Shown piece by piece: positions 7,541 through 43,372 of a stretch of 64,000 bases of DNA. The translations under genes and the position numbers were made by a program. The notes under the pieces were generated by a model that saw only the letters and a program-made list of their open reading frames with translations, searched no databases and had not been told where the DNA came from. The DNA comes from Pantoea trifolii (GTDB lineage: Bacteria > Pseudomonadota > Gammaproteobacteria > Enterobacterales > Enterobacteriaceae). Every line of letters starts with the position of its first letter. The first letter of the stretch is position 1. The stretch is from contig NZ_JANIET010000001.1 of assembly GCF_024506435.1 (NCBI RefSeq), positions 2,666,001 through 2,730,000 of the forward strand, given 5' to 3'.

Positions 7541-7954
7541 TTATCCACAACTCCATTGTGGAAAAGCTTTAGCAAATTTATCGTCAAATGGTCCTTCTTT
7601 AACTTCGAGCATTAATGCTCGCTCAGAAATACACTCAACACTATGAATATCACCTGGTGCAAACTCGATTAACGTAGTATTAGACGTTGGCCCAGCAGTG
7701 AACTTGCTAAGTATTTCACCATTTTCATTATATAAAGTTATTTCAAGTTCACCTTCTAACACAGTGAACAACTCCCACTGATGAGGTAATTCATGATAAT
7801 GAGGCTCAACATAACTACCCTGAACTAAACCAATCAATAATCTCTGCACTTTATCTTGATGAGAATAATGGAGTAAAACGTGAGATCTTTTTCTTTCCGA
7901 ACTAACAGCTGAATCAAATAATGATTGAATCATCGCATCATCAATGAGTCGCAT
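7541..7954 (-). CDS. wbuC: WbuC-family cupin-fold protein
   Basis: 137 residues beginning MRLIDDAMIQSL. A single cupin barrel is visible: the first metal motif HYHELPHQWELFTVLEGELEI near residues 71-93 and the second FAPGDIHSVECIS near 117. WbuC proteins are small putative metalloproteins that recur at the end of O-antigen operons, often right after wbuB; their biochemical role is not established. ATG 7954 is chosen because GAGGG lies just upstream on the coding strand and the resulting 14-bp overlap with wbuB is typical of this operon; a longer frame to 8035 lacks such support. Last gene of the O-antigen operon. Confidence 0.85.
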   Translation of the reverse strand: MRLIDDAMIQSLFDSAVSSERKRSHVLLHYSHQDKVQRLLIGLVQGSYVEPHYHELPHQWELFTVLEGELEITLYNENGEILSKFTAGPTSNTTLIEFAPGDIHSVECISERALMLEVKEGPFDDKFAKAFPQWSCG

Positions 7955-9155
7955 AATTTCCCTCGAAGGCGTTTTCAATAATATTGGCTGCGGAAGAAAC
8001 TGTAAATTCATCTTCCAATAGTTTGAATGCAGCACTACCTATGCGTTTTCGCAATTCAGAATCTTCAACCAATTTCACTGCAGACTGAAATAATGCCTCA
8101 TCATCACCATTGATATGGATAAATCCAGCTCCATGGTTATTTACTAAACTCTCCAGGTCATTACCGGCATTAATACTCCCTAATATCGGCAAACTTTCAA
8201 CCATATATCCCAATATTTTTCCAGGGAAATTAAATGCGGTATGATTAGCAGACAACGAAAATAATCCGATATCGATTTCAGCGAGTATATTTTTAAAATG
8301 AGCCTGAGGAACTGAAGGGAGATAACTAAAATTATTAAGCGCCCAGTCGTTTGCCAGTTTTTTAACTAGCTCAACCTCATCACCCTGACCAATAAACAAA
8401 AAATGTGCGTCGGGATATTTTTCCATGCGCCTTGCGAGACGCATCAAATTTGACATGTCTTGGGCATGGCCAATATTCCCTCCGTAAAAGAATATAATCT
8501 TCTTGTTTAAGTTTAATGATTGCCTAATAGGTACATAATCAACTGGCAGCACGTTGGATGGCCGAACATCAGCCCAATTACGCAACACCTCACAATTGGT
8601 AGAAGGATTACATTTTCGGAATAAAATTAAGTTGTTCTCAGACATAAGCCCGATTTTATCGGCCTGATTATAGGAGAACCTTTCAAAGTATTTGAAGAAT
8701 TTCTCTATGACGGAGCCACTTTTAATCATTCCGGCATCAATAGCCCATTGAGGGAATAAATCACGAAGAACAAGATATGATCTACAATGACATCGTCTCT
8801 TTATTTTGTTTACCAAATGCCCCCAAAAAATAGAGGGGGAATAGTAGACAATTCCATCAAAAGTGTCGGCTTTAACCAGTTGACGGATGGTTTTCCAGGC
8901 ACGCAGCGATAATAAAGCCTCATTGATTCCACGAGTTAGATGTCTGACATCCTTTATTGGCCCATTTTTAAAACGCCATACCTGGACATTGTCAAATGTC
9001 TCAATGACGAGCTTTTCCTTTTGCTCTGAACACGGCGTAATAACAGTCACATTATGCCCGCGTTTCAGGAACTCCAGAGCCAGTTCATGAAACATCTTAG
9101 CGCCAACGCGCGTGCTTTGTGGAAGATAATCGTCAATGATTAGAGCCAGATTCAT
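7941..9155 (-). CDS. wbuB: Glycosyltransferase family 4, WbuB-like L-fucosamine transferase
   Basis: 404 residues with a GT-B fold. The N-terminal domain starts MNLALIIDDYLPQSTRVGAK. The C-terminal donor domain shows FFYGGNIGHAQDM, HFLFIGQGDE and NFPGKILGYMVESLPILGS, as in WbuB/WbvD-type enzymes. WbuB adds N-acetyl-L-fucosamine from UDP-L-FucNAc to the lipid-linked O-unit at the cytoplasmic face. The assignment rests on the similarity and on position directly after fnlABC, which make the donor. ATG 9155 is preferred over the upstream TTG because it forms a one-base TAATG junction with fnlC, with GGAAAG as ribosome-binding site. Linkage and acceptor are not known. Confidence 0.85.
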   Translation of the reverse strand: MNLALIIDDYLPQSTRVGAKMFHELALEFLKRGHNVTVITPCSEQKEKLVIETFDNVQVWRFKNGPIKDVRHLTRGINEALLSLRAWKTIRQLVKADTFDGIVYYSPSIFWGHLVNKIKRRCHCRSYLVLRDLFPQWAIDAGMIKSGSVIEKFFKYFERFSYNQADKIGLMSENNLILFRKCNPSTNCEVLRNWADVRPSNVLPVDYVPIRQSLNLNKKIIFFYGGNIGHAQDMSNLMRLARRMEKYPDAHFLFIGQGDEVELVKKLANDWALNNFSYLPSVPQAHFKNILAEIDIGLFSLSANHTAFNFPGKILGYMVESLPILGSINAGNDLESLVNNHGAGFIHINGDDEALFQSAVKLVEDSELRKRIGSAAFKLLEDEFTVSSAANIIENAFEGNYATH

Positions 9156-10285
9156 TAATATTCTTTCCAAACAACTCGCTTAATATAATCAGTGTAAGAC
9201 TGAACAATTCTTACTACTTTATCTGATACATTCGGCATACTATAATCATAAACCTGTCGCAGTAACCTTTCATCTCCGCGCGGTTGATTCTCTAATATAG
9301 AGAGAGCTTGCAAGACACGTTCTGTTTCAAGCCCTACCATCATGACTGATGCTTCTTCAAAGCCTTCAGGTCGTTCGTGAGCTTCACGAATATTTAGCGC
9401 TGGAAAGTTCATTATTGAAGATTCTTCAGTGATGGTGCCACTGTCTGAAAGAACCGCTCTTGCATTTTTTTGCAAATGATTATAATCATGAAACCCAAGA
9501 GGCTTCAGCAACTGAATATTTTTGTGGAAAACGATGCCATTTTCTTCAACACGGTTTCTTGTACGAGGGTGCGTAGAAACAATTACAGGCAATTGATACT
9601 TTTCAGCAATGGTATTGAGTATGTCAGCAAGTTTAGATAGCTGCTTGGGTGAATCAACATTCTCTTCACGGTGAGCGCTAACAACAAAGAATTTATTCTT
9701 TTGTAGTCCAAGCCGATTTAAGACGTCTGAAGCATTAATCTGGGGCATATAGTGGTTCAGCACTTCAAACATCGGGCTACCCGTCTTAATAACTCGGTCT
9801 GCTGGTAAGCCTTCAGCGAGTAGATATTCTCTCGCGATGTCACTGTATGTAAGGTTAACATCGGCTGTGTGATCAACAATGCGGCGATTAGTTTCTTCAG
9901 GTACGCGTTGATCAAAACAACGATTACCTGCTTCCATATGGAAGATAGGTATCTTGCGTCGTTTTGCAGCGATTGCAGAAATACAAGAGTTCGTATCACC
10001 TAAAACCAACATAGCTTCAGGTTTAACCTCTTCGAAAACTTCATCAATTTTTATAATGACTTGCCCGATTGTTTCAGCTGCATTCTTGCCTGCAGCATTT
10101 AAAAAATAATCCGGTTTTCTTACTTGAAGATCATTAAAGAATACTTCGTTAAGCTCATAATCATAATTTTGACCTGTATGAACCAAAATGTGTTCACAAT
10201 ATGAATCAAGTTTTGCCAGAACTCGCGACAAGCGAATAATTTCTGGACGAGTGCCAACCACTGAAACTATTTTCAACTTTTTCAT
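9155..10285 (-). CDS. fnlC: UDP-N-acetyl-L-fucosamine synthase (2-epimerase)
   Basis: 376 residues of the UDP-GlcNAc 2-epimerase family. Signatures are VVGTRPEIIRLSRVL at the N-terminus, HTGQNYDYELNEVFF, HMEAGNRCFDQRVPEETNRR with the conserved acidic and arginine residues, and SDSGTITEESS near residue 280. FnlC (WbjD/Cap5G type) inverts C2 of UDP-N-acetyl-L-pneumosamine to give UDP-L-FucNAc, the last step of the pathway begun by fnlA and fnlB just upstream. Related 2-epimerases act on UDP-GlcNAc, but the fnlA-fnlB-fnlC order and the RCFDQRVPEE motif favour this role. AAGGA precedes ATG 10285. Confidence 0.92.
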   Translation of the reverse strand: MKKLKIVSVVGTRPEIIRLSRVLAKLDSYCEHILVHTGQNYDYELNEVFFNDLQVRKPDYFLNAAGKNAAETIGQVIIKIDEVFEEVKPEAMLVLGDTNSCISAIAAKRRKIPIFHMEAGNRCFDQRVPEETNRRIVDHTADVNLTYSDIAREYLLAEGLPADRVIKTGSPMFEVLNHYMPQINASDVLNRLGLQKNKFFVVSAHREENVDSPKQLSKLADILNTIAEKYQLPVIVSTHPRTRNRVEENGIVFHKNIQLLKPLGFHDYNHLQKNARAVLSDSGTITEESSIMNFPALNIREAHERPEGFEEASVMMVGLETERVLQALSILENQPRGDERLLRQVYDYSMPNVSDKVVRIVQSYTDYIKRVVWKEY

Positions 10286-10294
10286 AGGGTTCCT

Positions 10295-11422
10295 TCATAA
10301 TAAAGAAGCTGTAGTATCTGGATTTTGAGCGTCAAAATTTTCATTAGCCCAAACAATCGCTATCAGTTCTTCATCTCCAATATTGGTAACATCGTGTGAC
10401 CAGCCAGGAATCGTTTCGACGATGCATGCTTGAGCCTTACTGGTAACCAATTCATAACGTTCATTGGTAAGCAAATGGCGAAACCTAAACTTAGCAGTGC
10501 CTTGAATAACTAGGAACTTTTCCGTTTTGCAATGATGATAATGTCCGCCACGAGTTACTCCAGGATGTGCAGTAAAATACGAAACTTGTCCTGAATCTAT
10601 AGTTTTGATAATTTCTACAAAACGCCCACGCGGATCCTTATGTTCTTTGATTGAATAAGTAAATTTATCAACAGGGAGATAGCTTACATAAGTTGAGTAT
10701 AAGGCTCTTAAAAAACCATTCCCAACCCTTTCAGTCACTAAGTTTTCACGGCTATCAGCAAAGGATTTTATCGTGTCAGCTAGCTCTCCAACTGTCGTAT
10801 GATACTCAGGCTGAATTTCTAATAAAACATCTCGAAGCGGATTAACGTTCTTTCTATCTAATATCGAGATGAAGGTGGTTAAAACATCATCGATATGAAC
10901 TAATTTAAGCGGATGATGTTTGTCAGCAATTTCTATTGGCTTGTCATTCGCAATGTTATGGCAAAATGTTGCAACAACAGAATTATAATTTGGTTTAGCC
11001 CATTTACCAAAAACACCAGGCAAACGACAAATATAGATAGGGATTCCATATTTGTTATTCAAGCGTAATAAAACATTCTCGGCTTCTCGCTTGGAATTTC
11101 CATATGGTGTTTCTAGTACAGCGTGAATAGATGAAGTCAACAATACAGGGATCATACGCCCTGTTTTCTCGAAGATATCGGCGATACAGGAGCAAACGCT
11201 TTGCGTGAGATTAATATTTCCTGTAGTAAATTCCTCAGGATTCAACGGGCGGTTAATACCCGCTAAATGAAATACAAAATCTACGTCCTGCAACAGTGCT
11301 GATAATTCTTGCTCATTCTGCTGACGACTAAAATTGAAGGCAGTAATGCCCTTAATTTCACTCAGACGAAGAGAGAGATTTTTTCCTATAAATCCGTCAG
11401 AACCTGTAATCAGGACATTCAC
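10295..11422 (-). CDS. fnlB: UDP-2-acetamido-2,6-dideoxy-hexulose 4-reductase with cupin domain
   Basis: 375 residues. The N-terminal two thirds is an extended short-chain dehydrogenase: LITGSDGFIGKNLSL nucleotide motif, then FHLAGINRPLNPEEF, with the PYGNSKREAE segment holding the YxxxK catalytic pair. The C-terminal third (about 255-375) is a cupin with HPGVTRGGHYHHCKTEKFLVI. This two-domain build is that of FnlB/WbjC/CapF, which reduces the 4-keto-L-lyxo intermediate from FnlA to UDP-N-acetyl-L-pneumosamine with NADPH. The start codon is GTG at 11422, supported by a strong GGAGGAAT a few bases upstream and by the 3-base gap to the fnlA stop. Confidence 0.92.
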   Translation of the reverse strand: MNVLITGSDGFIGKNLSLRLSEIKGITAFNFSRQQNEQELSALLQDVDFVFHLAGINRPLNPEEFTTGNINLTQSVCSCIADIFEKTGRMIPVLLTSSIHAVLETPYGNSKREAENVLLRLNNKYGIPIYICRLPGVFGKWAKPNYNSVVATFCHNIANDKPIEIADKHHPLKLVHIDDVLTTFISILDRKNVNPLRDVLLEIQPEYHTTVGELADTIKSFADSRENLVTERVGNGFLRALYSTYVSYLPVDKFTYSIKEHKDPRGRFVEIIKTIDSGQVSYFTAHPGVTRGGHYHHCKTEKFLVIQGTAKFRFRHLLTNERYELVTSKAQACIVETIPGWSHDVTNIGDEELIAIVWANENFDAQNPDTTASLL

Positions 11423-11425
11423 TGC

Positions 11426-12469
11426 TTATTCCTCCGGGTCCGCATATTCGCCATGCGAAATTTTACGCATAAATTCAAGTTTTAAAAGCAATTGAGTCAT
11501 ACCTTCAACATCCAGACGTTGTGTATTATGAGAGTTGTACTCTTCACCGCACAATGCATCTGTCATTTTTTGTTCACCTTCTTCTACAAATTTCGCGTAA
11601 TTTAAATCACGCGTATCTGCAGGAACACGGAAGTAATCCCCCATATCTTCGGCGCATGCTCGTTCTTCTTTACCGAGCAGTGATTCAAACAGTTTTTCAC
11701 CATGACGCGAACCAATAATACTTACCTGATGCTCAGGTTTATTCATTAAATTCAGAATGGCTTTTGTTAAAGTTTCAACAGTAGCAGCAGGTGCCTTTTG
11801 TACAAAAATGTCGCCATTATTTCCATGCTCAAAAGCATACAGCACTAGATCGACTGCATCGGCAAGCGTCATCATAAAACGTGTCATGCTTGGCTCAGTA
11901 ATAGTAATCGTCTTGCCCTGCTGAACTTGCTGGACAAAAAGCGGAATGACCGAACCTCTTGACGCCATGACGTTGCCATAACGAGTACCGCAAATCACCG
12001 TTTCTGTACCCTCCAGATTACGGCTAGCAGCAACCATGACTTTTTCCATCATCGCTTTGCTGATACCCATTGCATTTATGGGATAAACTGCTTTATCCGT
12101 GCTCAAACAAACAACACGTTTAACACCTGCTAAAATGGCACAATTAAGTACATTTTCAGTACCTAAAACATTGGTGCGTACCGCCTGCATTGGATGAAAT
12201 TCGCATGACGGTACTTGCTTTAAAGCTGCTGCATGGAAAACATAATCAACACCGCGCATTGCAGCTGCAATGCTGTTCTCATCTCGCACATCACCCAGAT
12301 AGAATTTAAGCTTGCTGCTATTGTATTTTTTCCGCATGTCATCTTGTTTTTTTTCGTCGCGGCTAAAAATACGTATTTCACCAATATCTGAATCGAGGAA
12401 CCGTTTAAGAACAGCATTACCAAATGATCCTGTACCACCAGTGATAAGAAGAGTCTTACCTTTAAACAT
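11426..12469 (-). CDS. fnlA: UDP-GlcNAc 4,6-dehydratase (5-inverting) / 3,5-epimerase
   Basis: 347 residues of the FlaA1/CapE dehydratase group. Visible are LLITGGTGSFGNAVLKRFL (NADP binding), FHAAALKQVPSCEFHP, LSTDKAVYPINAMGISKAMMEK with the MxxxK pair that replaces YxxxK in this group, and GDIFVQKAPAAT. FnlA (WbjB/CapE) converts UDP-GlcNAc to the 4-keto-L-arabino sugar and then epimerises C3. Its first product is the same compound that PseB makes for the pseudaminic acid route, and no pseB is present in this locus. The sequence is FnlA-like rather than PseB-like, because it has MGISK where PseB has YGATK. AGGAG precedes ATG 12469. Confidence 0.93.
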   Translation of the reverse strand: MFKGKTLLITGGTGSFGNAVLKRFLDSDIGEIRIFSRDEKKQDDMRKKYNSSKLKFYLGDVRDENSIAAAMRGVDYVFHAAALKQVPSCEFHPMQAVRTNVLGTENVLNCAILAGVKRVVCLSTDKAVYPINAMGISKAMMEKVMVAASRNLEGTETVICGTRYGNVMASRGSVIPLFVQQVQQGKTITITEPSMTRFMMTLADAVDLVLYAFEHGNNGDIFVQKAPAATVETLTKAILNLMNKPEHQVSIIGSRHGEKLFESLLGKEERACAEDMGDYFRVPADTRDLNYAKFVEEGEQKMTDALCGEEYNSHNTQRLDVEGMTQLLLKLEFMRKISHGEYADPEE

Positions 12470-12495
12470 TGTTTTCTCCTAACTTATTAGCATTT

Positions 12496-13611
12496 CTAAA
12501 GTAAACGTTCTAAATATAATTCTGCTCGTTTGTTTGCATTTGCAAATGTCAAAGCGCGTTCATATGATTCATCAATTTTAGTCTGGAAATCATTTTGTAA
12601 ATATACATTTTTAAAATAATGAGCGATCTTTTCTGCAGCATCATGTGCATTAGTGGCTTCAAAATAAATGGCACCATCGCCGCAAACATCATGATTAAAG
12701 GGTTTATTAGAAGCAAACAATACTTTTTTTGAAATCATAGCCTCTAATGGTGTTGCGGAAAAACATTCCAATAGGCTTGGGAAAATGATGGCATCAATAT
12801 TACTATAAAACGATGGGCACTGATCTACAGTTAAAACACCCACGTTTTTAATTTCATTTCTGAATTCATTGCTACATAGCTCCCATTCTTTATCATTAAA
12901 AGTGACATAAAATTCAACTTCAATTCCGTATTTGGACGATAGGATTTTTTTTATCTGTGGGAAAATTTTGGTATTTTTATGTGCATAATTTCTTCCTACA
13001 AAGCCTAGCTTAATCCTGTTTGGATCGAATAAGTAGTTGATTTCCTTCCAACGACTGGGATCAAGGTAGATTGAACTTAGACAATTATGAATAATCTTTA
13101 CATGCTCTTTGGTCGCAATATTTTTTTTAATCACACCTTTTGCAACATGTTCAAGTTCAACAATAATTTCATCAGATTTATTAAAAAATTTCTGCTGAAG
13201 TGAAAATTTCAATTTGGTTTTTAATCGCGTTAGAAATGGTAGTGAATTATAAACTTCATTATCAGAATATATAATCCAAGGTTGGGCAAATCCAACTATA
13301 CTATAAAAATGACGATTGTATGTATAAAGTGGGCCAAATATAGTCAGTACCTTATTGAATGAATTAAGGTGTTTCACATTAGCCGGAAATAGCGCCTTGA
13401 TGCCAAAATTATTTTTAACTTGGTAATCGGGAAGCTTCGACAAATCATAATTGAGAGATTTTAAATTTTGATTAACGACTGATGATGACCAAATGGTCAA
13501 ATTAGATGGAATATTTTCCATCATTGTAATTTCACCAATCACTGAAGTCGCGACTTGAACTCCGCCTCCAACGTGTAAATTGCTTGCATTAAGTAAGACT
13601 CGATCTGCCAT
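12496..13611 (-). CDS. Glycosyltransferase, GT4-like (O-antigen assembly)
   Basis: About 371 residues, GT-B fold. The N-terminal LLNASNLHVGGGVQVA motif is typical of GT4 enzymes in O-antigen loci, and the C-terminal donor domain has LGFVGRNYAHKN and IIFPSLLECFSATPLEAM with the E-x7-E motif. It should add one residue of the O-unit at the cytoplasmic face; donor and linkage cannot be read. ATG 13611 and the GTG at 13614 are adjacent in-frame candidates, with AAAGG upstream. The gene overlaps the end of wzy by about 23 bp, and the strongly AT-rich composition matches its neighbours. Confidence 0.8.
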   Translation of the reverse strand: MADRVLLNASNLHVGGGVQVATSVIGEITMMENIPSNLTIWSSSVVNQNLKSLNYDLSKLPDYQVKNNFGIKALFPANVKHLNSFNKVLTIFGPLYTYNRHFYSIVGFAQPWIIYSDNEVYNSLPFLTRLKTKLKFSLQQKFFNKSDEIIVELEHVAKGVIKKNIATKEHVKIIHNCLSSIYLDPSRWKEINYLFDPNRIKLGFVGRNYAHKNTKIFPQIKKILSSKYGIEVEFYVTFNDKEWELCSNEFRNEIKNVGVLTVDQCPSFYSNIDAIIFPSLLECFSATPLEAMISKKVLFASNKPFNHDVCGDGAIYFEATNAHDAAEKIAHYFKNVYLQNDFQTKIDESYERALTFANANKRAELYLERLL

Positions 13612-14953
13612 CACAATTTTTGCCTTTAATTTTTGAAATTGACTTAGTGGCTAATAAATAAATTAAAATTGCGATTACAGTCAGCACAGTTCCCTTCCAC
13701 GCTGAAAACATTACCGCATGCCAGATTAGAAATATAGAAAATGAAAGTTTGAATATTAAGAAACCCATTATAAAGTTTCTATCTTTATTGAAAAGAACCA
13801 TTTTAGCTTGGAGAAAACCCAATAAAACAAAAATGATTGTTTGCAAAATCAAAGTTGGTAATAATCCCATAAAATGGATTTGAACTGCGGGAGAAAAACC
13901 TGATAAGTTCGTACCGGTTGCATTGTAATGCAAGTATGTTTGAATCGGCAAAAGATCATAAGATATATAATCGTAAACATTAGTGAAATTATCACAACCT
14001 GTCAGACAATATCTTTCATTACTAACAATATCAGGGAAGGAGTGATTTATAACACTCCACATAACTTGCCCCTGTAGGACTACACGCGTTAATATGAACG
14101 TGACGTCATATCCTTGCAGTGAGTAAGAAAGAGCAAGCATTAATACTAACAGTGCAAAAATAGCAAAAATGAAAAATAGACTTTTCTTTTTAAATTTCAA
14201 ATAATCATTAAATGAAGGATATAAAGCGAAGAAAATAGTGATATACACTATAAAAGCACTGAACTTTTGACCTAATACCATGAATGTAATGAAAATATAA
14301 AATATCAATAATAATAGCGATAGCTTACTGTTCTGTCTATCAAATCGCTTTAATAAAAAATAATAGGCCGAAAAATAAAAGGTTTGAATCACCAATGTTG
14401 GATAAAATGAAAAGCCAGTGTTACCCATCGAATCCCAAAATGCGACTCTATTTACCCCTTTTAGCACTGGCCCAGAGTAAAAAATAAGAATGGCCAGACC
14501 TAAAATAAAAACAACACTCATAGTTGAAAGTAAAAATTTACTAATAATATTAGCCGGCAATCGTGCTATTTTTATTTTATTAGGTTTCTTTAATGTCCAT
14601 TCAAAACTTACTTTTGAAATTCCGACTGAATAAATAAAGAAAGATAGCATCATAAAGGCGGCACCATTTGGAGTGCCAGTTTCATTTATCTCTATCATCA
14701 GCATACCAGTGCTGGCTATTACTAAACTAACCAACATACCGATATAATAATAAAATGTCATGCCGCTAGTGTACAAAAATGCTGGTGAATTCCTATAACA
14801 ATAAATAACAAGTGAAATTACACTTACAGGAATAACTATAAACTCTAAATAAACAGCATTTGATATATACCCTAAATACTCCGCATATCCAATAATAAAA
14901 AATGCAACTGGCGCGCAAAAAACCAGAAAAAGATCAGATTTATTTATAACCAT
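13589..14953 (-). CDS. wzy: Putative O-antigen polymerase Wzy
   Basis: 454 residues, strongly hydrophobic, with about 11-12 membrane segments and one larger polar loop in the second half (about residues 290-345, containing NERYCLTGCDNFTNVYDYISYD). This profile, the absence of any other polymerase in the operon and the presence of wzx and wzz identify it as Wzy, which joins lipid-linked O-units on the periplasmic side. Wzy proteins diverge too far for a motif-based call. It overlaps the upstream transferase by 10 bp and the downstream GT4 by about 23 bp. Confidence 0.82.
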   Translation of the reverse strand: MVINKSDLFLVFCAPVAFFIIGYAEYLGYISNAVYLEFIVIPVSVISLVIYCYRNSPAFLYTSGMTFYYYIGMLVSLVIASTGMLMIEINETGTPNGAAFMMLSFFIYSVGISKVSFEWTLKKPNKIKIARLPANIISKFLLSTMSVVFILGLAILIFYSGPVLKGVNRVAFWDSMGNTGFSFYPTLVIQTFYFSAYYFLLKRFDRQNSKLSLLLLIFYIFITFMVLGQKFSAFIVYITIFFALYPSFNDYLKFKKKSLFFIFAIFALLVLMLALSYSLQGYDVTFILTRVVLQGQVMWSVINHSFPDIVSNERYCLTGCDNFTNVYDYISYDLLPIQTYLHYNATGTNLSGFSPAVQIHFMGLLPTLILQTIIFVLLGFLQAKMVLFNKDRNFIMGFLIFKLSFSIFLIWHAVMFSAWKGTVLTVIAILIYLLATKSISKIKGKNCDGRSSLT

Positions 14954-16410
14954 ATTTTCTCATTTTCAACCGCATCAATATCTGAAAAAACAATTTCTTT
15001 AATTACAGACAGATAGATTTCTTCTGCTTTGACTTCAGCTGCTCGTCCCGTTAGCATTAAATTCATCGTACCAGGATAAGTAGCGAGGTAACAAGCCGCA
15101 ACAAAATTTTTCGCATATTCAATGTCATTATTAAATGGTTTTAAGTTCTCATTGAATATATTAAACAACTTCTCTGGGGATTCAACTTTCACCACATTTT
15201 TATGATATTCATAGAATACATTGCCGTATAAAAAAACTTTTTTTCCTAGCAGCAAGGCTTCATATCCAACCGTACTGGTCAGAGTGACAACACCTAAAGA
15301 ACTCTTAATTAAAAGTTTGGTTTGTTCTGTAGGCGCCAAAATCTTAACATTTGGTAGCTTCTTTAATTTGTTATAAAAATCCAGTGATGGATAGCCCCAT
15401 GCACTGATATGATCTTTCACATAAAGAAAAACACCTTGCGGAAGGTTAAATGAAATGTTTTTGATTACTTCATACTCATTTAAAAAGTTACCCGCTAAAA
15501 TAGAAGTAGATGATTCAGGATGAAAATGCATTGGATAAAGTAAAAAGCTTTCATCTAATGAGGAGTCATCATAATAATGCTTGAGTTTTTTAATTTTTAA
15601 CTTGCGCTTCACATTTCTTTTAAAAAGATTGAAATATGTTTTAACTGGGTTTCCTGACTGGAAAGAATGATAACCATCGTCATTGACATGTTTAAATATA
15701 CGTTTTAATGTATTTATTTTATTAGGGTTAAAATATCTGGTAATCAGATTAATGTTATCCAAACCATTTATTTTCATATAATCAGGTACAACAGTATCAA
15801 TATTCTCTAAATACTCTGCTGACCATTTTTTTACTTCTTCAGGAACTTCAATGCTATTTGTTTCGATTAATTTACTAAACGTTTTTGCTCTTGAGTCGTC
15901 TAATGGATTTGACGAAATTGAAAACCGACCAGGAATTCTCGAACCACCAATGCCAAGATATTTTTTGCCATGTTCCGTTGCCACCGCCCATGCAACATGT
16001 GAGAAGGTATTCGATACATTTTCATACAGAATATAATCAATGTTTTCCTTTTCAATGATCATCTCATAGAAACTGCATAACGCACTTAGGAGACGACTTA
16101 AATAACCTTTATCTTTCTCTCCCCAGACGCCATAAATCTCAGCACGTTCAAAGTCGGATAGCAGCATGAAATTAAGATTATATTTATTATATCGCTGTAA
16201 TGTATAGATATTAGTCTCATGCTGTCGAAAATATGATGAAAACTCATACACATTGAGATTTAATTCATCTAATGCGTTATTATCTCTTGATAACTCACTA
16301 TCAACTGCAAACGCTACGTTGGCTTCATCTTTGGATAAAAGTCGTGCCAAATGATTAAAGAAATAATGATAATTAGGTGCGCCATTAGATAAAATTAGAA
16401 CATTTTTCAT
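14944..16410 (-). CDS. Capsule-synthesis (KpsS-like) protein, candidate pseudaminyltransferase
   Basis: 488 residues. The C-terminal half resembles the Capsule_synth/KpsS superfamily: FLLYPMHFHPESSTS near residue 292, GVFLYVKDHISAWGYPS near 327, and LGVVTLTSTVGYEALLLGKKVFLYGN near 372-397. KpsS-type enzymes are GT-B transferases of CMP-activated ulosonic acids, and a KpsS-type retaining pseudaminyltransferase has been described in Acinetobacter. The gene follows pseI with a four-base overlap, so transfer of pseudaminic acid from CMP-Pse is the best inference. No signal peptide or membrane segment is visible, consistent with a cytoplasmic enzyme. The N-terminal 200 residues are not recognised. 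Confidence 0.65.
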   Translation of the reverse strand: MKNVLILSNGAPNYHYFFNHLARLLSKDEANVAFAVDSELSRDNNALDELNLNVYEFSSYFRQHETNIYTLQRYNKYNLNFMLLSDFERAEIYGVWGEKDKGYLSRLLSALCSFYEMIIEKENIDYILYENVSNTFSHVAWAVATEHGKKYLGIGGSRIPGRFSISSNPLDDSRAKTFSKLIETNSIEVPEEVKKWSAEYLENIDTVVPDYMKINGLDNINLITRYFNPNKINTLKRIFKHVNDDGYHSFQSGNPVKTYFNLFKRNVKRKLKIKKLKHYYDDSSLDESFLLYPMHFHPESSTSILAGNFLNEYEVIKNISFNLPQGVFLYVKDHISAWGYPSLDFYNKLKKLPNVKILAPTEQTKLLIKSSLGVVTLTSTVGYEALLLGKKVFLYGNVFYEYHKNVVKVESPEKLFNIFNENLKPFNNDIEYAKNFVAACYLATYPGTMNLMLTGRAAEVKAEEIYLSVIKEIVFSDIDAVENEKIWL

Positions 16411-17474
16411 TTTTCAAACTCTACGAGCGACTCTTCCGTGACAGGTGTGTTAGGTTCAATATTACGACTAACAATTTTTCCAATAACTTTTTCTATATAT
16501 TTAGGCGCTAAACCAAAACCGGGCCTAACACTTCGGATACTGTCTTCAGTAACAATATCTCCCTTTTCTAAGGATTTCACAAAATAGAGTGAGCGTCTAA
16601 ATTGCACATTACCTTGCTCACTGGATTTGCGACCATAATCTACTTTACCGAGGGCTGACCATGCAGTTTTAGCCCCATTGCAAAGCTCTTCCATCTCCAG
16701 AGGTTCAAGTGAAAAGCTGTCATCTGGGCCGCCCCCTGAGCGATCTAATGTGAAGTGTTTTTCAATAATAGATGCACCTAACGCAACACTCGTAATAGCT
16801 GTTGTGTTATCCAGCGTGTGATCAGAAAGGCCGGTAACTAAATTGTGCCGATTGATCATGTCAGAGACCGTACGCAAATTGTAATCTTCAGCTGGTGCAG
16901 GGTAACCACTTACGCAATGTAATATAGCAAGCTCCTTGCAACCACCAGAACGCGCTGCTTCAATCGCTTCTGATATCTCATCAGCATCAGCCATACCTGT
17001 TGAAATGATCATCGGTTTGCCGGTACTGGCCACATAACGAATAAGAGGAAGGTCAATAGCCTCAAACGAAGCTATTTTGTACGCTGGAGCATTTAAATCT
17101 TCCAACAAATCTACAGCTGTTGAATCAAATGGAGAACTAAAAATTGTAATGTCATTTTTAGATGCGCATTCAAAAAGTATTTTATGCCATTCCCACGGCA
17201 TCGCTGCTTGCTGATAGAGATTATAGAGAGTTGTTCCGTCCCATAATCCACCTTTGATTTGGAAGTCGTCTCTATCGCTATTTAGCGTGATCGTATCAGC
17301 TGTGTAAGTCTGTAATTTTATTGCATCAGCGCCAACAATTTTAGCTTGTTCAATAAGTTTCATTGCATTCTCAATTCTCCCATTATGATTTGCAGAAAGC
17401 TCCGCGATTATATATGGAGAATAGTCCAAACCAATTTTTCGACCTGCAATTGTTATATATGGATAATTATGCAT
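16407..17474 (-). CDS. pseI: Pseudaminic acid synthase
   Basis: 355 residues of the NeuB family. It condenses 2,4-diacetamido-2,4,6-trideoxy-L-altrose with phosphoenolpyruvate to give pseudaminic acid. The TIM-barrel part has IIAELSANHNGR near residue 23, AIKLQTYTADTITL and GLWDGTTLYNLYQQAAMPWEWH (the PseI-type rather than NeuB-type signature), then GLSDHTLDN and IIEKHFTLDRSGGGPDDSFSL. The last 60 residues form the SAF antifreeze-like domain (RRSLYFVKSLEKGDIVT). It overlaps pseH by 8 bp and the KpsS-like gene by 4 bp. Assignment as PseI rather than a legionaminate synthase is supported by pseC, F, G and H upstream. Confidence 0.93.
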   Translation of the reverse strand: MHNYPYITIAGRKIGLDYSPYIIAELSANHNGRIENAMKLIEQAKIVGADAIKLQTYTADTITLNSDRDDFQIKGGLWDGTTLYNLYQQAAMPWEWHKILFECASKNDITIFSSPFDSTAVDLLEDLNAPAYKIASFEAIDLPLIRYVASTGKPMIISTGMADADEISEAIEAARSGGCKELAILHCVSGYPAPAEDYNLRTVSDMINRHNLVTGLSDHTLDNTTAITSVALGASIIEKHFTLDRSGGGPDDSFSLEPLEMEELCNGAKTAWSALGKVDYGRKSSEQGNVQFRRSLYFVKSLEKGDIVTEDSIRSVRPGFGLAPKYIEKVIGKIVSRNIEPNTPVTEESLVEFEK

Positions 17475-18000
17475 TTGAAGTTACCTTTTTTTTCCATTCA
17501 TTTTTCAAGAGGCCAAAACATATTACATCATGGTATTTTACGCCGTCATAATGCTCATCGCGTAGAACACCTTCTTCAGTAAAAAAAAATTTATTATGTA
17601 GATGAAGTGACCGTTGATTAAAGTCGATTACGCGAGCACTAATTTTATGTAGATTTAAAGATTCGAAAGCGTATTTTAAAACGTTCAAAGCCATTTGCTG
17701 CCCAGTTCCCCTCGGAGAAGATGGATCCACATAGAATCCCCATTCAGCAACGCCTCCTTTCAATACTGATAACTGGACAAAGCCAACACTGAATTTGTTC
17801 TTTTCAAAAATGAGAAGATGTTTTTTCTCATCTTTTACAGTCCGCTTGAACCATGCTTGATGATCAGCTAATGCAATGACATCGCTATTAAACATAAAAT
17901 GCCTAATTTTATCATCATTGCGCCATTGCAAGATGATGTCTAAATCTTCTTCCTGTAACTGCCGGAGGTTATTACTATTAGACGATAGAAACTCGATCAT
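17467..18000 (-). CDS. pseH: UDP-4-amino-4,6-dideoxy-N-acetyl-L-altrosamine N-acetyltransferase
   Basis: 177 residues, a GNAT-fold acetyltransferase: NLRQLQEEDLDIILQWRND at the N-terminus, VAEWGFYVDPSSPRGTGQQMA with the acetyl-CoA pyrophosphate loop near residues 85-105, and KISARVIDFNQRSLHLHNKF. PseH acetylates the 4-amino group produced by PseC, using acetyl-CoA. The identification depends mainly on its place in the pse gene string (C-F-G-H-I), because GNAT proteins are divergent. Its start overlaps the pseG stop by four bases (ATGA), and it overlaps pseI by 8 bp. Confidence 0.9.
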   Translation of the reverse strand: MIEFLSSNSNNLRQLQEEDLDIILQWRNDDKIRHFMFNSDVIALADHQAWFKRTVKDEKKHLLIFEKNKFSVGFVQLSVLKGGVAEWGFYVDPSSPRGTGQQMALNVLKYAFESLNLHKISARVIDFNQRSLHLHNKFFFTEEGVLRDEHYDGVKYHDVICFGLLKNEWKKKVTSNA

Positions 18001-19097
18001 CTTAACTTCTCCAATTCAGTTACCACTTTCTCTGCTCCTTTACCATCGGTGAGCAAAGAACTAAAATATGACATTTGTTCTAAAATCTCTGGGTTTTCGT
18101 GGATAAGATCAAAACAATGAATTATTTTATTTTTCACATTTTCTTCTAAATTGATAATAAATGCTGCATTACTTTTTAATAAATTTTCAGCAATTATTTT
18201 CTGATTATCAGCAACAACTATCATTATTGTAGGTACTCCCATGGCACATCTTTCCCATGCGGAAGAACCTGCTGCACCTATAGCAATGTCACTGTGACTG
18301 AGCAGTTTGGCCATTTCCGTTGTATCAACGAAGAGATTGTAATTCCATGGAAGTTTATCTGCATTACTTCGAACAACTTCGATCCATGGTGATTTCCCCC
18401 CCATGACAATGGTTAGCTCACATTCATCAGGTAGACCACATTCCGAAAGAGAGTCCATAACCTCGGAAGTAATGTTGTCTTTATCAATACCGCCCAAAGA
18501 TATTAATATAGATGTTAACTTCCCTCTTTCTTTTTTATTAATACTTGCGTTTCTGTATTCTGAAAACTCATCTCTTAGCAAAGAATAGCCTGGCCCAAAG
18601 AGTGTTATACATTTTTCTGGCAATAATAATTTATAGTCATCCCATGAACGCCCTGCATTCTGATCCAGAATAAAATTGCAAAAATGCTTTCTATTAGCTA
18701 AATCATCAATGACAGCAATATAAGTCGTTGAAGCTTTGACTGCAGATTCCCAGACAATATCTAAAGCGTAGTGGTCGATAATAATTAAATTAACGGTGAT
18801 ATTATCTAAAATCTCTAATGTTTCTTTTGAATCAATTTCTTGAGTGCATCCTAGCCAATCTTCATATCCCTTTGATGCATCATTCACGGCATATTCATTA
18901 GATGGGAGTATTAAACATCTAAATCCTCTTTTTTCTATTGCGTTAATAGCGTTCCCTGGATGTGGTCGAGTGACAAAATAACAAATTGCACCTCTTTTTG
19001 AGAGTTCATCCGCAAGAGTCAAACACCGCATAACATGCCCGGTGCCAATGCTCAGCGATGCATCAACACGAAAAACCACATTTTTCCCAAAAAACAT
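17997..19097 (-). CDS. pseG: UDP-2,4-diacetamido-2,4,6-trideoxy-beta-L-altropyranose hydrolase
   Basis: 366 residues, a GT-B-like hydrolase. The start FRVDASLSIGTGHVMRCLTLADEL is the hallmark of PseG, with the catalytic His in GTGHVMRC near residue 20. IDDLANR near 130, ILISLGGIDKDN near 195 and IAIGAAGSSAWERCAMGVPTI near 272 follow. PseG removes UDP from the diacetamido sugar so that PseI can act. It lies 2 bp after pseF and overlaps pseH by four bases. The protein is slightly long for the family, whose members are usually 275-360 residues. Confidence 0.93.
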   Translation of the reverse strand: MFFGKNVVFRVDASLSIGTGHVMRCLTLADELSKRGAICYFVTRPHPGNAINAIEKRGFRCLILPSNEYAVNDASKGYEDWLGCTQEIDSKETLEILDNITVNLIIIDHYALDIVWESAVKASTTYIAVIDDLANRKHFCNFILDQNAGRSWDDYKLLLPEKCITLFGPGYSLLRDEFSEYRNASINKKERGKLTSILISLGGIDKDNITSEVMDSLSECGLPDECELTIVMGGKSPWIEVVRSNADKLPWNYNLFVDTTEMAKLLSHSDIAIGAAGSSAWERCAMGVPTIMIVVADNQKIIAENLLKSNAAFIINLEENVKNKIIHCFDLIHENPEILEQMSYFSSLLTDGKGAEKVVTELEKLR

Positions 19098-19099
19098 AT

Positions 19100-19789
19100 T
19101 TAGCCTCTATTAAGCAAGTAAAAGAGCTGCTCAGCTCTGTCCCAGTCTTCCTGTGTATCTATATCCTGCACGCGTGTACGAGGAAGTATAACTGGCACCG
19201 AGCTGCTGCTAAAAATCGGCCGTTGATTTAACCATGCTTGTGATGTTCCCCAATAGAACTGCCCTGCATCATGTAGCGCTTCTTCGAGATCCTGTGAACG
19301 AGTATTGTAGTGCTCGGGAAAAAACATTTCAGTTCTGCCCTGAGAATTAACTTTTATCGCTCGCTGTATTGGAAAAGGGTAATGCGTTACAGAAAATGCA
19401 TAATCAGATTTATGAACAATCAGTTCTTGCAAGCCTTTAATCAAGTCTTCCGAAGTGATGAATGGAGCTGTAGCATAGATGCAACATGCAGCAGTAACTT
19501 TCTGAACGTTGTCTTCAATCCATTTAACTGCATGAGAAATAACCGGCACAGTCCCAGTAAAATCATCTGATAACTCTCTAGGCCTGAGAAAAGGAACCTC
19601 AACGCCATATGCCCGAACAACATCAGCAATTTCTTCATCATCTGTTGACACAATAATTTTGTCAAAAATCATGCTTTTTTGAGCTGAAAGAATTGAATGA
19701 GCAATCATTGGCATGCCACAGAATTCACGTATGTTTTTTCTCGGAATTCGTTTACTCCCACCACGGGCTGGGATCACAGCAACTTTCAT
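19100..19789 (-). CDS. pseF: CMP-pseudaminic acid cytidylyltransferase
   Basis: 229 residues of the NeuA/KdsB nucleotidyltransferase family. The N-terminal CTP-binding motif AVIPARGGSKRIPRKNI is complete, followed by IIVSTDDEEIADVVRAYG, LRPRELSDDFTGT and VQDIDTQEDWDRAE near the C-terminus. PseF activates pseudaminic acid with CTP to CMP-Pse, the donor used by the transferase. The ATG overlaps the pseC stop by four bases. Related NeuA or LegF enzymes use other nonulosonates; the flanking pse genes decide the call. Confidence 0.93.
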   Translation of the reverse strand: MKVAVIPARGGSKRIPRKNIREFCGMPMIAHSILSAQKSMIFDKIIVSTDDEEIADVVRAYGVEVPFLRPRELSDDFTGTVPVISHAVKWIEDNVQKVTAACCIYATAPFITSEDLIKGLQELIVHKSDYAFSVTHYPFPIQRAIKVNSQGRTEMFFPEHYNTRSQDLEEALHDAGQFYWGTSQAWLNQRPIFSSSSVPVILPRTRVQDIDTQEDWDRAEQLFYLLNRG

Positions 19790-20946
19790 GACATCAATGC
19801 TTCTTTAAGCACATTAACAACCTCATTTTGTTGTTCAATTGTTAATGTTGGATACATTGGGATACTAATTGCTTCCAGGTAATATTGCTCAGATTCTGGA
19901 TAATCCCCTGGCTTGAAGCCCATTTTTTCATAATATGGTTGTGTATGAACAGGAATATAATGCAGATTAACAATTATTTCCTTGCTACGCATATAGTTGA
20001 ATACTTCAAGATGTGTTTTATTAATTCTATTTAGTTGCAAACGAATAACGTAAAGATGCAAACCAGAATAACTATCAGGGTGCTGCCATGGCACAGTTAC
20101 TGCAACGTCAGAAAAAAGCTCATCATATCTCTGCGCAATAGCATGCCTGCGAGCTACATACTCATCAAGCCTGTTAATCTGACTGGCTCCCAATGCTGCT
20201 TGCATATCTGTCATACGATAGTTATAGCCAAGAGCAACCTGCTGATAATACCAAGGCCCATCCATTTCCTTTGTCATCAACTCAGGCTCACGAGTAATGC
20301 CATGACTTCTTAACAGACCCAATTGTGTAGCCAACTCATCATCATTTGTCACTGCCATACCGCCTTCAGCAGTGGTAATGATTTTCACTGGGTGAAAACT
20401 GAAAATCGTAATATCGCTAAATTCGCAATTACCAATTGGCTTATTTTTATACTTCCCGCCAATAGCATGAGATGCATCCTCAATGATACGGAAGCCATAT
20501 TCTTTGGACAATTTATGGATTGCTTCCATATTGCATGGTTGCCCAGAAAGATGAACTGGAACTACTACCTTAGGCAGTCGATTTTCTTTTTTTGCTCTGA
20601 CTAACTTTTCCTCTAATTTTTCGGGGCATAGGTTGTAAGTTCTTGCATCGATGTCAACAAAGTCAACTTTTGCACCACAATAGAGCGCACAATTTGCTGA
20701 AGCGACAAAGGTATTCGGTGTCGTCCACAACCAGTCACCTTTGCCCAAACCTAAAGCTAAGCAGGCTATATGTAAAGCTGATGTGGCGCTATTAACTGCA
20801 ACGGCATGTTTAACATTGCAATAATTTATCACCGATTGTTCAAAACGAGTAATAGCAGGACCCTGGGTAAGATTAGTTGATTTTAAAACTTCGACAACCG
20901 CATCAATATCAGCCTGTGTGATATCTTGTTGACCATATCTTATCAT
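19786..20946 (-). CDS. pseC: UDP-4-amino-4,6-dideoxy-N-acetyl-beta-L-altrosamine transaminase
   Basis: 386 residues, a DegT/DnrJ/EryC1 PLP-dependent aminotransferase. Motifs are AVNSATSALHIACLALGLGKGDWLWTTPNTF split over residues 52-82, EDASHAIGGKY near 160 and FSFHPVKIITTAEGG near 184, containing the PLP lysine. PseC aminates the 4-keto-L-arabino sugar made by a 5-inverting UDP-GlcNAc 4,6-dehydratase. The dehydratase pseB, normally directly upstream, is missing; the next gene upstream is wzx after 98 bp. FnlA at 11426-12469 may make the substrate. PseC begins the compact pse string. Confidence 0.93.
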   Translation of the reverse strand: MIRYGQQDITQADIDAVVEVLKSTNLTQGPAITRFEQSVINYCNVKHAVAVNSATSALHIACLALGLGKGDWLWTTPNTFVASANCALYCGAKVDFVDIDARTYNLCPEKLEEKLVRAKKENRLPKVVVPVHLSGQPCNMEAIHKLSKEYGFRIIEDASHAIGGKYKNKPIGNCEFSDITIFSFHPVKIITTAEGGMAVTNDDELATQLGLLRSHGITREPELMTKEMDGPWYYQQVALGYNYRMTDMQAALGASQINRLDEYVARRHAIAQRYDELFSDVAVTVPWQHPDSYSGLHLYVIRLQLNRINKTHLEVFNYMRSKEIIVNLHYIPVHTQPYYEKMGFKPGDYPESEQYYLEAISIPMYPTLTIEQQNEVVNVLKEALMS

Positions 20947-21044: not shown

Positions 21045-22271
21045 TTAACTTGATTTTCGTTCAATAACTAACGCTAGCGTCTTGAAAATGAAAATATAAA
21101 GAAAGGCAACATTGAGACCCAACGGCACACATAATATTGCACTCCATTTAGAAATAGTTACTGTAGCTAATGCGAAAACTATCATAGATGTGACATGACT
21201 GATTATAATAATTTTGTCTTCACCTTTTGCATACAATGCATAGTGTGAAATCATTCCTAACGCATTGAAAATCGTAGCTGACATCAATACGTAGTAAATA
21301 TCAAGATATTCAAAGTAAACGGTTTTTCCAGTCCACTTTAGTAAGTAGGGCATAACCAGTAAACTGACTGCCACGAAAACAATTGTTAATAATATCGTCG
21401 AAAGTGTCATTTTAGATAACTGTTTGCTGAATTCAGTTTTTTTATTGTCGTTGTGTAGTTTAATTAGTGTAGGGTAACTGAATGAAAATACACCTGCATC
21501 CAGGAACGTCATTAAGGTACTAGCCATACCTATAAATAGTACGTAGGCTCCCACTACATCCAACCCATTGAGACTCTGAATCCAGTAACGATCAACTGTC
21601 TGTATACCGCGTAAAGCTAATGTGGCAATTAAAAAGATGCCACTGGTTTGTATTCCTAATTTAATCCAGTGATAATCAATTTTATCTCGCCACCCGCCCA
21701 TACCAACTTTATGAAGGCAAAGAAGTCCTAAGACAAATGTTAGCACTCCAGATGCAAGCCATAATGCAAAAACAAACTCAAGCGTTCTTAATACTGGATA
21801 GAACATCATAAGAACTACTACAATTATTGCCCACAGACCTTGTCTTAGGAACAATAAAACACTTGCTACAGTTTGCTTATGAATCGCAATAAGTAATCTA
21901 GAAATCTCTTGATTCAAATGCTCAAAAAATAAAATAACAAAAAACCACAAAGTTTGAATTATAGTGATTTTTTGCAATGCAATCAAAAACACTAATGCAA
22001 TCAAGAGAAATACATATAAAACAGAAGAGACGCATGCTTGATTTTTAAGGAACCCGCCCCATCTTTTTTTGTCATTTTTGAGGATCTCGCGTGTTGTAAA
22101 CACATAAAAATCGAGTCCAACGAAATACAATGCATAGCCTACTGTGGCAGTGAATATTCCATATGCACCTAAAATAGATGGTTCTAAATACTTAGCCAAA
22201 AAGAATATAAATAGAAATCGACTTATTAAAGTAAGGCCTCTTAATGTTACATTAAAAATTCTTTTATTCAT
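21045..22271 (-). CDS. wzx: O-antigen flippase Wzx
   Basis: 408 residues, MATE/PST-like membrane protein with about 12 hydrophobic segments. The first is LTLISRFLFIFFLAKYLEPS, and the polar linker DNDKKRWGGF falls early as in other Wzx proteins. Wzx moves the undecaprenyl-linked O-unit across the inner membrane. As first gene of the O-antigen operon it lies 152 bp downstream of the ops element, with AGGT as a weak ribosome-binding site. A separate EPS flippase is encoded at 25066-26406, so the two pathways do not share it. Confidence 0.88.
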   Translation of the reverse strand: MNKRIFNVTLRGLTLISRFLFIFFLAKYLEPSILGAYGIFTATVGYALYFVGLDFYVFTTREILKNDKKRWGGFLKNQACVSSVLYVFLLIALVFLIALQKITIIQTLWFFVILFFEHLNQEISRLLIAIHKQTVASVLLFLRQGLWAIIVVVLMMFYPVLRTLEFVFALWLASGVLTFVLGLLCLHKVGMGGWRDKIDYHWIKLGIQTSGIFLIATLALRGIQTVDRYWIQSLNGLDVVGAYVLFIGMASTLMTFLDAGVFSFSYPTLIKLHNDNKKTEFSKQLSKMTLSTILLTIVFVAVSLLVMPYLLKWTGKTVYFEYLDIYYVLMSATIFNALGMISHYALYAKGEDKIIIISHVTSMIVFALATVTISKWSAILCVPLGLNVAFLYIFIFKTLALVIERKSS

Positions 22272-22422: not shown

Positions 22423-22461
22423 CACGCTACCGCCCCTGGCTTACGGCAACCACACGCCTTT
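22423..22461 (-). promoter_or_regulatory. JUMPstart with ops element (RfaH recruitment) for the O-antigen operon
   Basis: Read on the minus strand, the segment ends in AAGCCAGGGGCGGTAGCGTG (22442-22423), containing the exact ops core GGCGGTAGCGTG at 22434-22423. Twenty-one bases match the 3' part of the 39-bp JUMPstart; the 5' part is diverged. RfaH binds RNA polymerase paused at ops and lets it read through long operons without early termination. The element lies in the 5' leader, 152 bp before wzx. Confidence 0.93.
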
Positions 22462-43352: not shown

Positions 43353-43372
43353 CACGCTACCGCCCTTGGCTG
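43353..43372 (-). promoter_or_regulatory. JUMPstart/ops element of the EPS operon
   Basis: Minus strand reads GCCAAGGGCGGTAGCGTG at 43370-43353, with the exact ops core GGCGGTAGCGTG (43364-43353). It is in the leader 225 bp before amsG. The core is identical to that of the O-antigen operon at 22423-22434, so RfaH is expected to act on both. Confidence 0.92.

Follow-up and report, generated by a model that had tools for sequence, protein, structure and literature searches.

A pseudaminic acid operon without pseB in Pantoea trifolii and a proposed FnlA branch point for two rare sugars

The window analyzed here is a stretch of 64,000 nucleotides from Pantoea trifolii (NCBI RefSeq assembly GCF_024506435.1, contig NZ_JANIET010000001.1, positions 2,666,001 to 2,730,000), which harbors an O-antigen operon carrying genes for pseudaminic acid (Pse) and for UDP-L-FucNAc, without the pseB gene. 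The operon lies between galF/galE and gnd, the usual site of O-antigen loci, and forms a single co-directional row on the minus strand in the order wzx, pseC, pseF, pseG, pseH, pseI, a Capsule_synth-type gene, the gene of a 454-residue protein, a GT4 gene, fnlA, fnlB, fnlC, a WbuB-type glycosyltransferase gene and wbuC. All reading frames were found on this strand at the coordinates of an earlier, sequence-only reading of the same DNA. The genes and motifs of the two sugar modules, with the gene preceding them, are as follows:

21045..22271, minus strand: wzx-type flippase, first gene of the operon (PF01943, E 1.9e-4, 21.4 bits, gathering score of 28.2 not reached)
19786..20946, minus strand: pseC, aminotransferase (NCBIfam PseC, 557.9 bits; cut-off 423.5)
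19100..19789, minus strand: pseF, CMP-Pse synthetase (NCBIfam PseF, 339 bits; cut-off 205.7)
17997..19097, minus strand: pseG, UDP-sugar hydrolase (NCBIfam PseG, 295.9 bits; cut-off 153.55)
17467..18000, minus strand: pseH, 4-N-acetyltransferase (NCBIfam PseH, 121.7 bits; cut-off 93.1)
16407..17474, minus strand: pseI, Pse synthase (NCBIfam PseI, 494 bits; cut-off 340.25)
11426..12469, minus strand: fnlA, predicted 5-inverting UDP-GlcNAc 4,6-dehydratase, proposed branch point (FnlA model 615.8 bits, PseB model 315)
12056..12100, minus strand: FnlA active-site motif T124-D125-K126 ... M134-GIS-K138, identical to Ab-WbjB and CapE (3vvb)
10295..11422, minus strand: fnlB, CapF/WbjC-type 3-epimerase/4-reductase, the competing branch (NF047837, 550 bits; cut-off 500)
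10514..10549, minus strand: cupin HxHHxxxE motif of FnlB (CapF alignment; PF14667, 147.3 bits)
9155..10285, minus strand: fnlC, predicted UDP-sugar 2-epimerase giving UDP-L-FucNAc (wecB-type model, 236 bits; cut-off 210.15)

As the sequence-only reading had described, pseC, pseF, pseG, pseH and pseI are complete and tightly packed. All five exceed their curated NCBIfam cut-offs, and the junctions from pseC to wbuB are overlaps of 4-26 bases or gaps of 2-26 bases. The gap between wzx and pseC measures 98 bases. The wzx-type gene takes the slot in which pseB usually stands, and its protein is 43-45% identical to the product of the gene preceding pseC in two Nitrincola loci (L044 and L045, see below). 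The fnl module has the gene context expected for FucNAc, in which fnlA is followed by a cupin-bearing fnlB and then by fnlC; FnlB aligns with CapF (2zkl) along residues 1-370 of 375, a span that contains the cupin motif. The GC content of the operon genes is 31-42%, compared to 55-57% in galE and galF.

The operon carries both modules without a PseB-type dehydratase, which is confirmed by several searches. The genome comprises 5.06 Mb in three contigs and is 100% complete. The genome search for pseB that the sequence-only reading had called for, on which it could have failed, gave no PseB above the cut-off of 407.75 bits; the best match is FnlA with 314.8 bits, followed by a partial match of 40 bits in galE. 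Across the genome PF02719 matches FnlA alone over its full length, with four partial matches in other genes of the short-chain dehydrogenase/reductase (SDR) type. When 74 PseB proteins were compared with the window by tblastn, fnlA was matched with 247 bits and the other matches were weak (the best, in galE, with 52 bits). A pseB remnant, sought between wzx and pseC and elsewhere in the window, was rejected since none was found, and the PseB-model and PF02719 searches led to the rejection of a pseB hidden in another part of the genome. The open reading frame at 11426..12469 is itself no PseB, as it scores 315 bits and has Met at the position of the catalytic Tyr of the PseB YGATK-type motif; this Tyr is present in 76 of 77 PseB-like rows examined, and the remaining row failed to match the motif expression. 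FnlA, named as the sole candidate before any search was made, is the only full-length match to the PseB enzyme family in a complete genome lacking PseB, and is the likeliest stand-in.

Among solved structures, FnlA is closest to Ab-WbjB (4j2o, 585 bits) and CapE (487 bits), with FlaA1 (2gn4), the PseB of Helicobacter pylori, far behind at 229 bits. The active-site residues given above are those named for Ab-WbjB in PMC5774825. In published descriptions CapE/WbjB catalyzes 4,6-dehydration with inversion at C5, whereas CapF/WbjC performs C3 epimerization and reduction (PMC3699295, PMC5774825), and published work has CapE, WbjB and PseB yielding one identical 4-keto product. The proposal that the first product of FnlA/CapE enzymes is the UDP-4-keto-L-arabino sugar used by PseC is thus already chemistry in print (PMC3699295, PMC5774825). 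An older scheme, in a figure legend of PMC7198725, assigns C3 epimerization to FnlA as well; under that scheme the L-arabino form would still arise as an intermediate. Moreover, the keto product of PseB builds up in vitro when PseC is limiting, and extra PseC raises the yield (PMC7910423), from which we infer that PseC does not depend on a pairing with PseB.

Absence of PseB from a PseC-bearing genome is unusual. PseC scored above its cut-off in 145 of 394 genomes sampled from the order, 47 of 369 from the class and 77 of 398 from the phylum, 240 distinct genomes altogether. PseB did so in 142 of the 145, in 41 of 44 new ones from the class and in 49 of 51 new ones from the phylum (232/240 in total). 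The eight without PseB are that of the window (G000), G105, G013, G511, G632, G641, G771 and G803, among which G013 was rejected as a case because its contig begins inside a PseB directly before pseC. FnlA stands beside FnlC in five of the remaining seven (G000, G105, G511, G632 and G641, the FnlA of G511 being more distant), versus at most 7 of 233 comparison genomes, namely the 232 PseB-bearing ones plus G013 (p = 2.5e-6, uncorrected for kinship). Among PseB-bearing genomes, matches that reached 250 bits with the PseB model were taken as FnlA-like, which gave eight of 232 (G190, G247, G077, G057, G061, G620, G631 and G894), with G620 and G631 counted on score alone; the match of G077 belongs to another subfamily and was removed, and a partial second PseB in G001 was left out. 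In seven of these eight genomes the FnlA-like gene and PseB are on separate contigs or more than 1 Mb apart. PseI exceeds its cut-off in G000, G105, G511, G641, G771 and G803 and does not in G632 and G013, so that PseC and PseI occur together in six PseB-less genomes, four with FnlA and two without. In G641, pseC, pseG, a weak pseH and pseI form one cluster with fnlABC, while pseF was not found in the 40 kb examined; G511 is probably organized likewise.

The same layout recurs at named loci of other bacterial families, which the sequence-only reading could not have known, and this recurrence suggests a genuine rewiring. With the PseC of the window as query, 52 loci were found and pseB was sought in the stretch around each. 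It is present at 45, being split over two open reading frames in L078 and on the opposite strand in L088, and was not found in the local stretch at seven. In Nitrincola alkalisediminis, N. tibetensis and Psychrobacter immobilis (L044, L045 and L087), a flippase gene is followed by pseC-F-G-H-I and then by fnlA-fnlB-fnlC on one strand, although fnlC runs off the end of the examined stretch in all three. PseB does not exceed the cut-off in these genomes, whose completeness is not stated, and the best matches are again the FnlAs (307.8-313.7 bits). The two Nitrincola loci are near-copies and were counted as one event; the pseC to pseI proteins share 40-76% identity between the window and the PseB-less Nitrincola and Psychrobacter loci. 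No near match to the pse block was obtained by megablast in 5,426 E. coli genomes. A longer operon query matched eight of them through fnlA alone (5% of the query), and the two of these regions inspected are O181 loci without pse genes.

The other four of the seven loci were set aside: L068, from an uncultured Psychrobacter, since PseB lies on another contig of its genome; L084 and L091, in which pseC is at a contig edge; and L083 (G398), whose PseI is not above the cut-off. The pse locus of L068 lacks a local pseB, so that a PseB encoded elsewhere in a genome may suffice as well. L083 has an FnlA-type enzyme on the same contig and an atypical PseI. It belongs to a Sulfuritalea metagenome-assembled genome (L083 and L108; G398) with a PseC-like gene and distant PseI, PseG and PseF matches, in which FnlA and FnlC share a contig with no CapF-type FnlB between them; this cluster may represent a related but different nonulosonic acid route.

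In the PseC tree, the PseB-less label covers nine rows, of which L103 and L083 are without a typical PseI; three rows are long-branched. The window copies L001 and L004 were dropped from the counts, and L084 and L091 (PseB status unknown), L095 (cut) and L068 were placed on the PseB-bearing side. The label then requires five changes, four of them forced by well-supported branches. The window joins Nitrincola with modest support (97/72), and the PseC of Psychrobacter immobilis adjoins that of the pseB-bearing P. phenylpyruvicus. We read the tree as indicating about three origins of clusters with both modules, namely window/Nitrincola, Psychrobacter immobilis and G641/G511; an older loss of pseB with later regain is a possible alternative history. 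In the PseB-less clusters with both modules, an exporter gene directly precedes pseC, which is Wzx-type in the window, L044, L045 and L087, and an ABC transporter instead in L106 (8080-9876, G641) and L105 (6278-8104, G511). The gene before pseC in G105 has no Pfam match.

Taken together, we consider it likely that PseC and FnlB are both supplied by FnlA, which thereby makes PseB dispensable. FnlA would be the common first enzyme of two rare-sugar pathways in one O-antigen operon, converting UDP-GlcNAc to the 5-inverted 4-keto-6-deoxy sugar of L-arabino configuration. PseC would aminate this product, which PseH, PseG, PseI and PseF would then carry on to CMP-pseudaminic acid, whereas FnlB would 3-epimerize and reduce the same keto sugar and FnlC epimerize C2 to give UDP-L-FucNAc. 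PseB, being redundant, would have been left out or lost. The sequence-only reading had likewise placed two branches at FnlA, a proposal that the absence of PseB, the published chemistry and the recurrence support; it had let FnlB draw an already 3-epimerized product, and this part calls for a refinement. On the chemistry of CapF/WbjC, FnlB itself would perform the 3-epimerization, and FnlB and PseC would compete for one intermediate. Gene content, the absence of PseB from the genome, intact motifs and recurrence are established here directly, and the account of a shared FnlA builds on these gene patterns and on the published chemistry of relatives, for which C5 inversion and product release are known. 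That PseC uses the product of this FnlA in the cell, and that both sugars enter the O-unit, is inferred.

Several observations weigh against this assignment. The 615.8 bits of FnlA fall short of the NCBIfam FnlA equivalog cut-off of 730, so the enzyme is termed FnlA-type here and is not a certified equivalog; five relatives that adjoin fnlB and fnlC also score below it (612-672 bits), for which reason the cut-off looks stricter than the family. The Met motif alone is no proof of C5 inversion, since the Met-type SpsM of Bacillus subtilis gives an uninverted product (PMC7439481). A dedicated clade of Pse-feeding FnlAs was also rejected: the FnlAs of PseB-less and other loci are intermixed in the tree, and with no clade of their own nothing marks the former as specialized. 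In G894 (L112), pseB and fnlABC occur in one cluster, with fnlB broken into two frames and stop codons within pseI. The contig of G511 breaks between pseC (contig end) and pseI (contig start), where a pseB could sit. The pse and fnl genes of G105, which may be a further case, are ~1.9 Mb apart. G632 is no Pse case, as its PseI is not above the cut-off, and it was nevertheless kept in the five of seven. Finally, G771 (L109) and G803 (L110, L111) have PseC and PseI above the cut-offs but lack both PseB and a proper FnlA, so the PseC substrate must have another source somewhere; G771 gave no match at E 1e-40, and G803 carries a Met-type enzyme of a different kind. L098 and L111 (G077 and G803) contain a third Met-type relative of FnlA and PseB, with the motif SSDKAVNPTNVMGTSK, that is nearly equally distant from both.

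These last genomes bear on the possibility that FnlA serves FucNAc only and that the PseC substrate comes from an unrecognized enzyme, either a Pen/Pal-type pair or a distant SDR. Pen and Pal do replace PseB in Bacillus thuringiensis (PMC7439481), and G771 and G803 call for other sources. However, the operon holds no unexplained dehydratase that we could recognize, the genome has no second full-length PF02719 match (non-homologous enzymes elsewhere were not searched), and FnlA is enriched in PseB-less genomes, all of which makes this explanation improbable. We regard it as similarly doubtful that the Pse branch is dead, with pseB lost and no pseudaminic acid made. Such an outcome would agree with the lack of a PseB above the cut-off and has a parallel in Acinetobacter, for which clusters are described that hold a full Pse set although the reported structure contains no Pse (PMC3726653); against it, the five pse genes are intact and above their cut-offs, no pseB remnant was seen, and the layout is kept in Nitrincola and Psychrobacter, where a dead pathway would hardly be retained. 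That PseC takes a C3-epimerized keto sugar made by FnlA and FnlB, giving an undescribed C6-altered Pse epimer beside L-FucNAc, is very unlikely: the older scheme with FnlA as 3- and 5-epimerase (PMC7198725) would allow both keto forms to be present, but the scores of PseC, PseH, PseG, PseI and PseF are all those of ordinary Pse enzymes and C3 epimerization has been placed in CapF/WbjC (PMC3699295, PMC5774825).

Apart from the two sugar modules, the operon contains the following features:

22423..22434, minus strand: predicted ops element upstream of wzx, RfaH-type operon leader (exact 12-base match)
14944..16410, minus strand: Capsule_synth-type protein adjoining pseI, putative Pse transferase (PF05159, 33.9 bits)
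13589..14953, minus strand: 454-residue protein, probable wzy by position
12496..13614, minus strand: GT4-type glycosyltransferase (PF00534)
7941..9170, minus strand: wbuB-type glycosyltransferase, presumed L-FucNAc transferase (PF00534; WcaI-type match under cut-off)
7541..8035, minus strand: wbuC, cupin protein at the operon end (TIGR04366, 138.5 bits; cut-off 42)

The ops element, which matches the 12-base consensus, lies ~150 bases upstream of wzx and downstream of galE and a terminator-like hairpin, and this position makes a single transcript likely. A search for the JUMPstart pattern that allowed up to three mismatches found none; a second exact ops element lies far upstream of the operon (window 43353-43364, minus strand). 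The Capsule_synth-type protein has a weak homolog (28% identity over 157 residues) one gene from pseI in G641 (L106, 18353-19846), and the 454-residue protein has no Pfam or NCBIfam match. The name wbuB is one that we assume from the operon. As annotated, wbuC overlaps wbuB by 95 bases; its family match begins only at residue 30, so the true start is probably later. WbuC (window 7541-8035; L009 10048-10452) accompanies fnl-type operons including that of E. coli O181, the reductase of which is RmlD-type and, judging by its length, without a cupin domain. That WbuC might be a separate 3-epimerase is speculation.

The sequence-only reading knew of no locus with FnlA feeding both branches, and we met no description of FnlA, WbjB or CapE feeding Pse in the open-access literature, among the matches listed and with the primary FucNAc and Pse enzyme papers outside its scope; the available portions of PMC8987622, PMC6309461, PMC8304393 and PMC3628348 contain none. 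That the products of FnlA-type enzymes and PseB are identical is already in print, which lessens the surprise. If the proposal is true, PseB is no necessary marker of Pse synthesis and genome scans that demand it miss producers. The supply of both rare sugars in a single repeat unit would then depend on one enzyme, which would form a natural branch point with a measurable flux split, and a sugar module could shed its own first step on joining a cluster that already has one, as would have happened about three times.

Compared to known systems, the operon has all of PseC, PseH, PseG, PseI and PseF of the CMP-Pse pathway of Helicobacter pylori and Campylobacter jejuni, but the PseB of that pathway is missing from the genome and the FnlA-type enzyme is its proposed stand-in. 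With the UDP-L-FucNAc pathways of P. aeruginosa O11 (WbjB-C-D), S. aureus (CapE-F-G) and E. coli (FnlA-B-C), it shares the adjacent and ordered fnlA-B-C, the active-site motif and the cupin domain, and would differ in that PseC also draws off the first intermediate. The Pen/Pal route of Bacillus thuringiensis likewise makes Pse without PseB, through two dedicated enzymes, whereas the dehydratase proposed here is common to another sugar pathway. In the SpsM route of Bacillus subtilis, a Met-type CapE relative also feeds a nonulosonic acid pathway; however, its uninverted keto sugar leads to legionaminic acid, unlike the route proposed for FnlA. The K loci of Acinetobacter baumannii contain both kinds of module, psa (for Pse) and fnlABC, with psaA as the pseB counterpart. 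The Pse modules that we met in PMC9676051 each carry psaA, in contrast to the PseB-less operon of the window.

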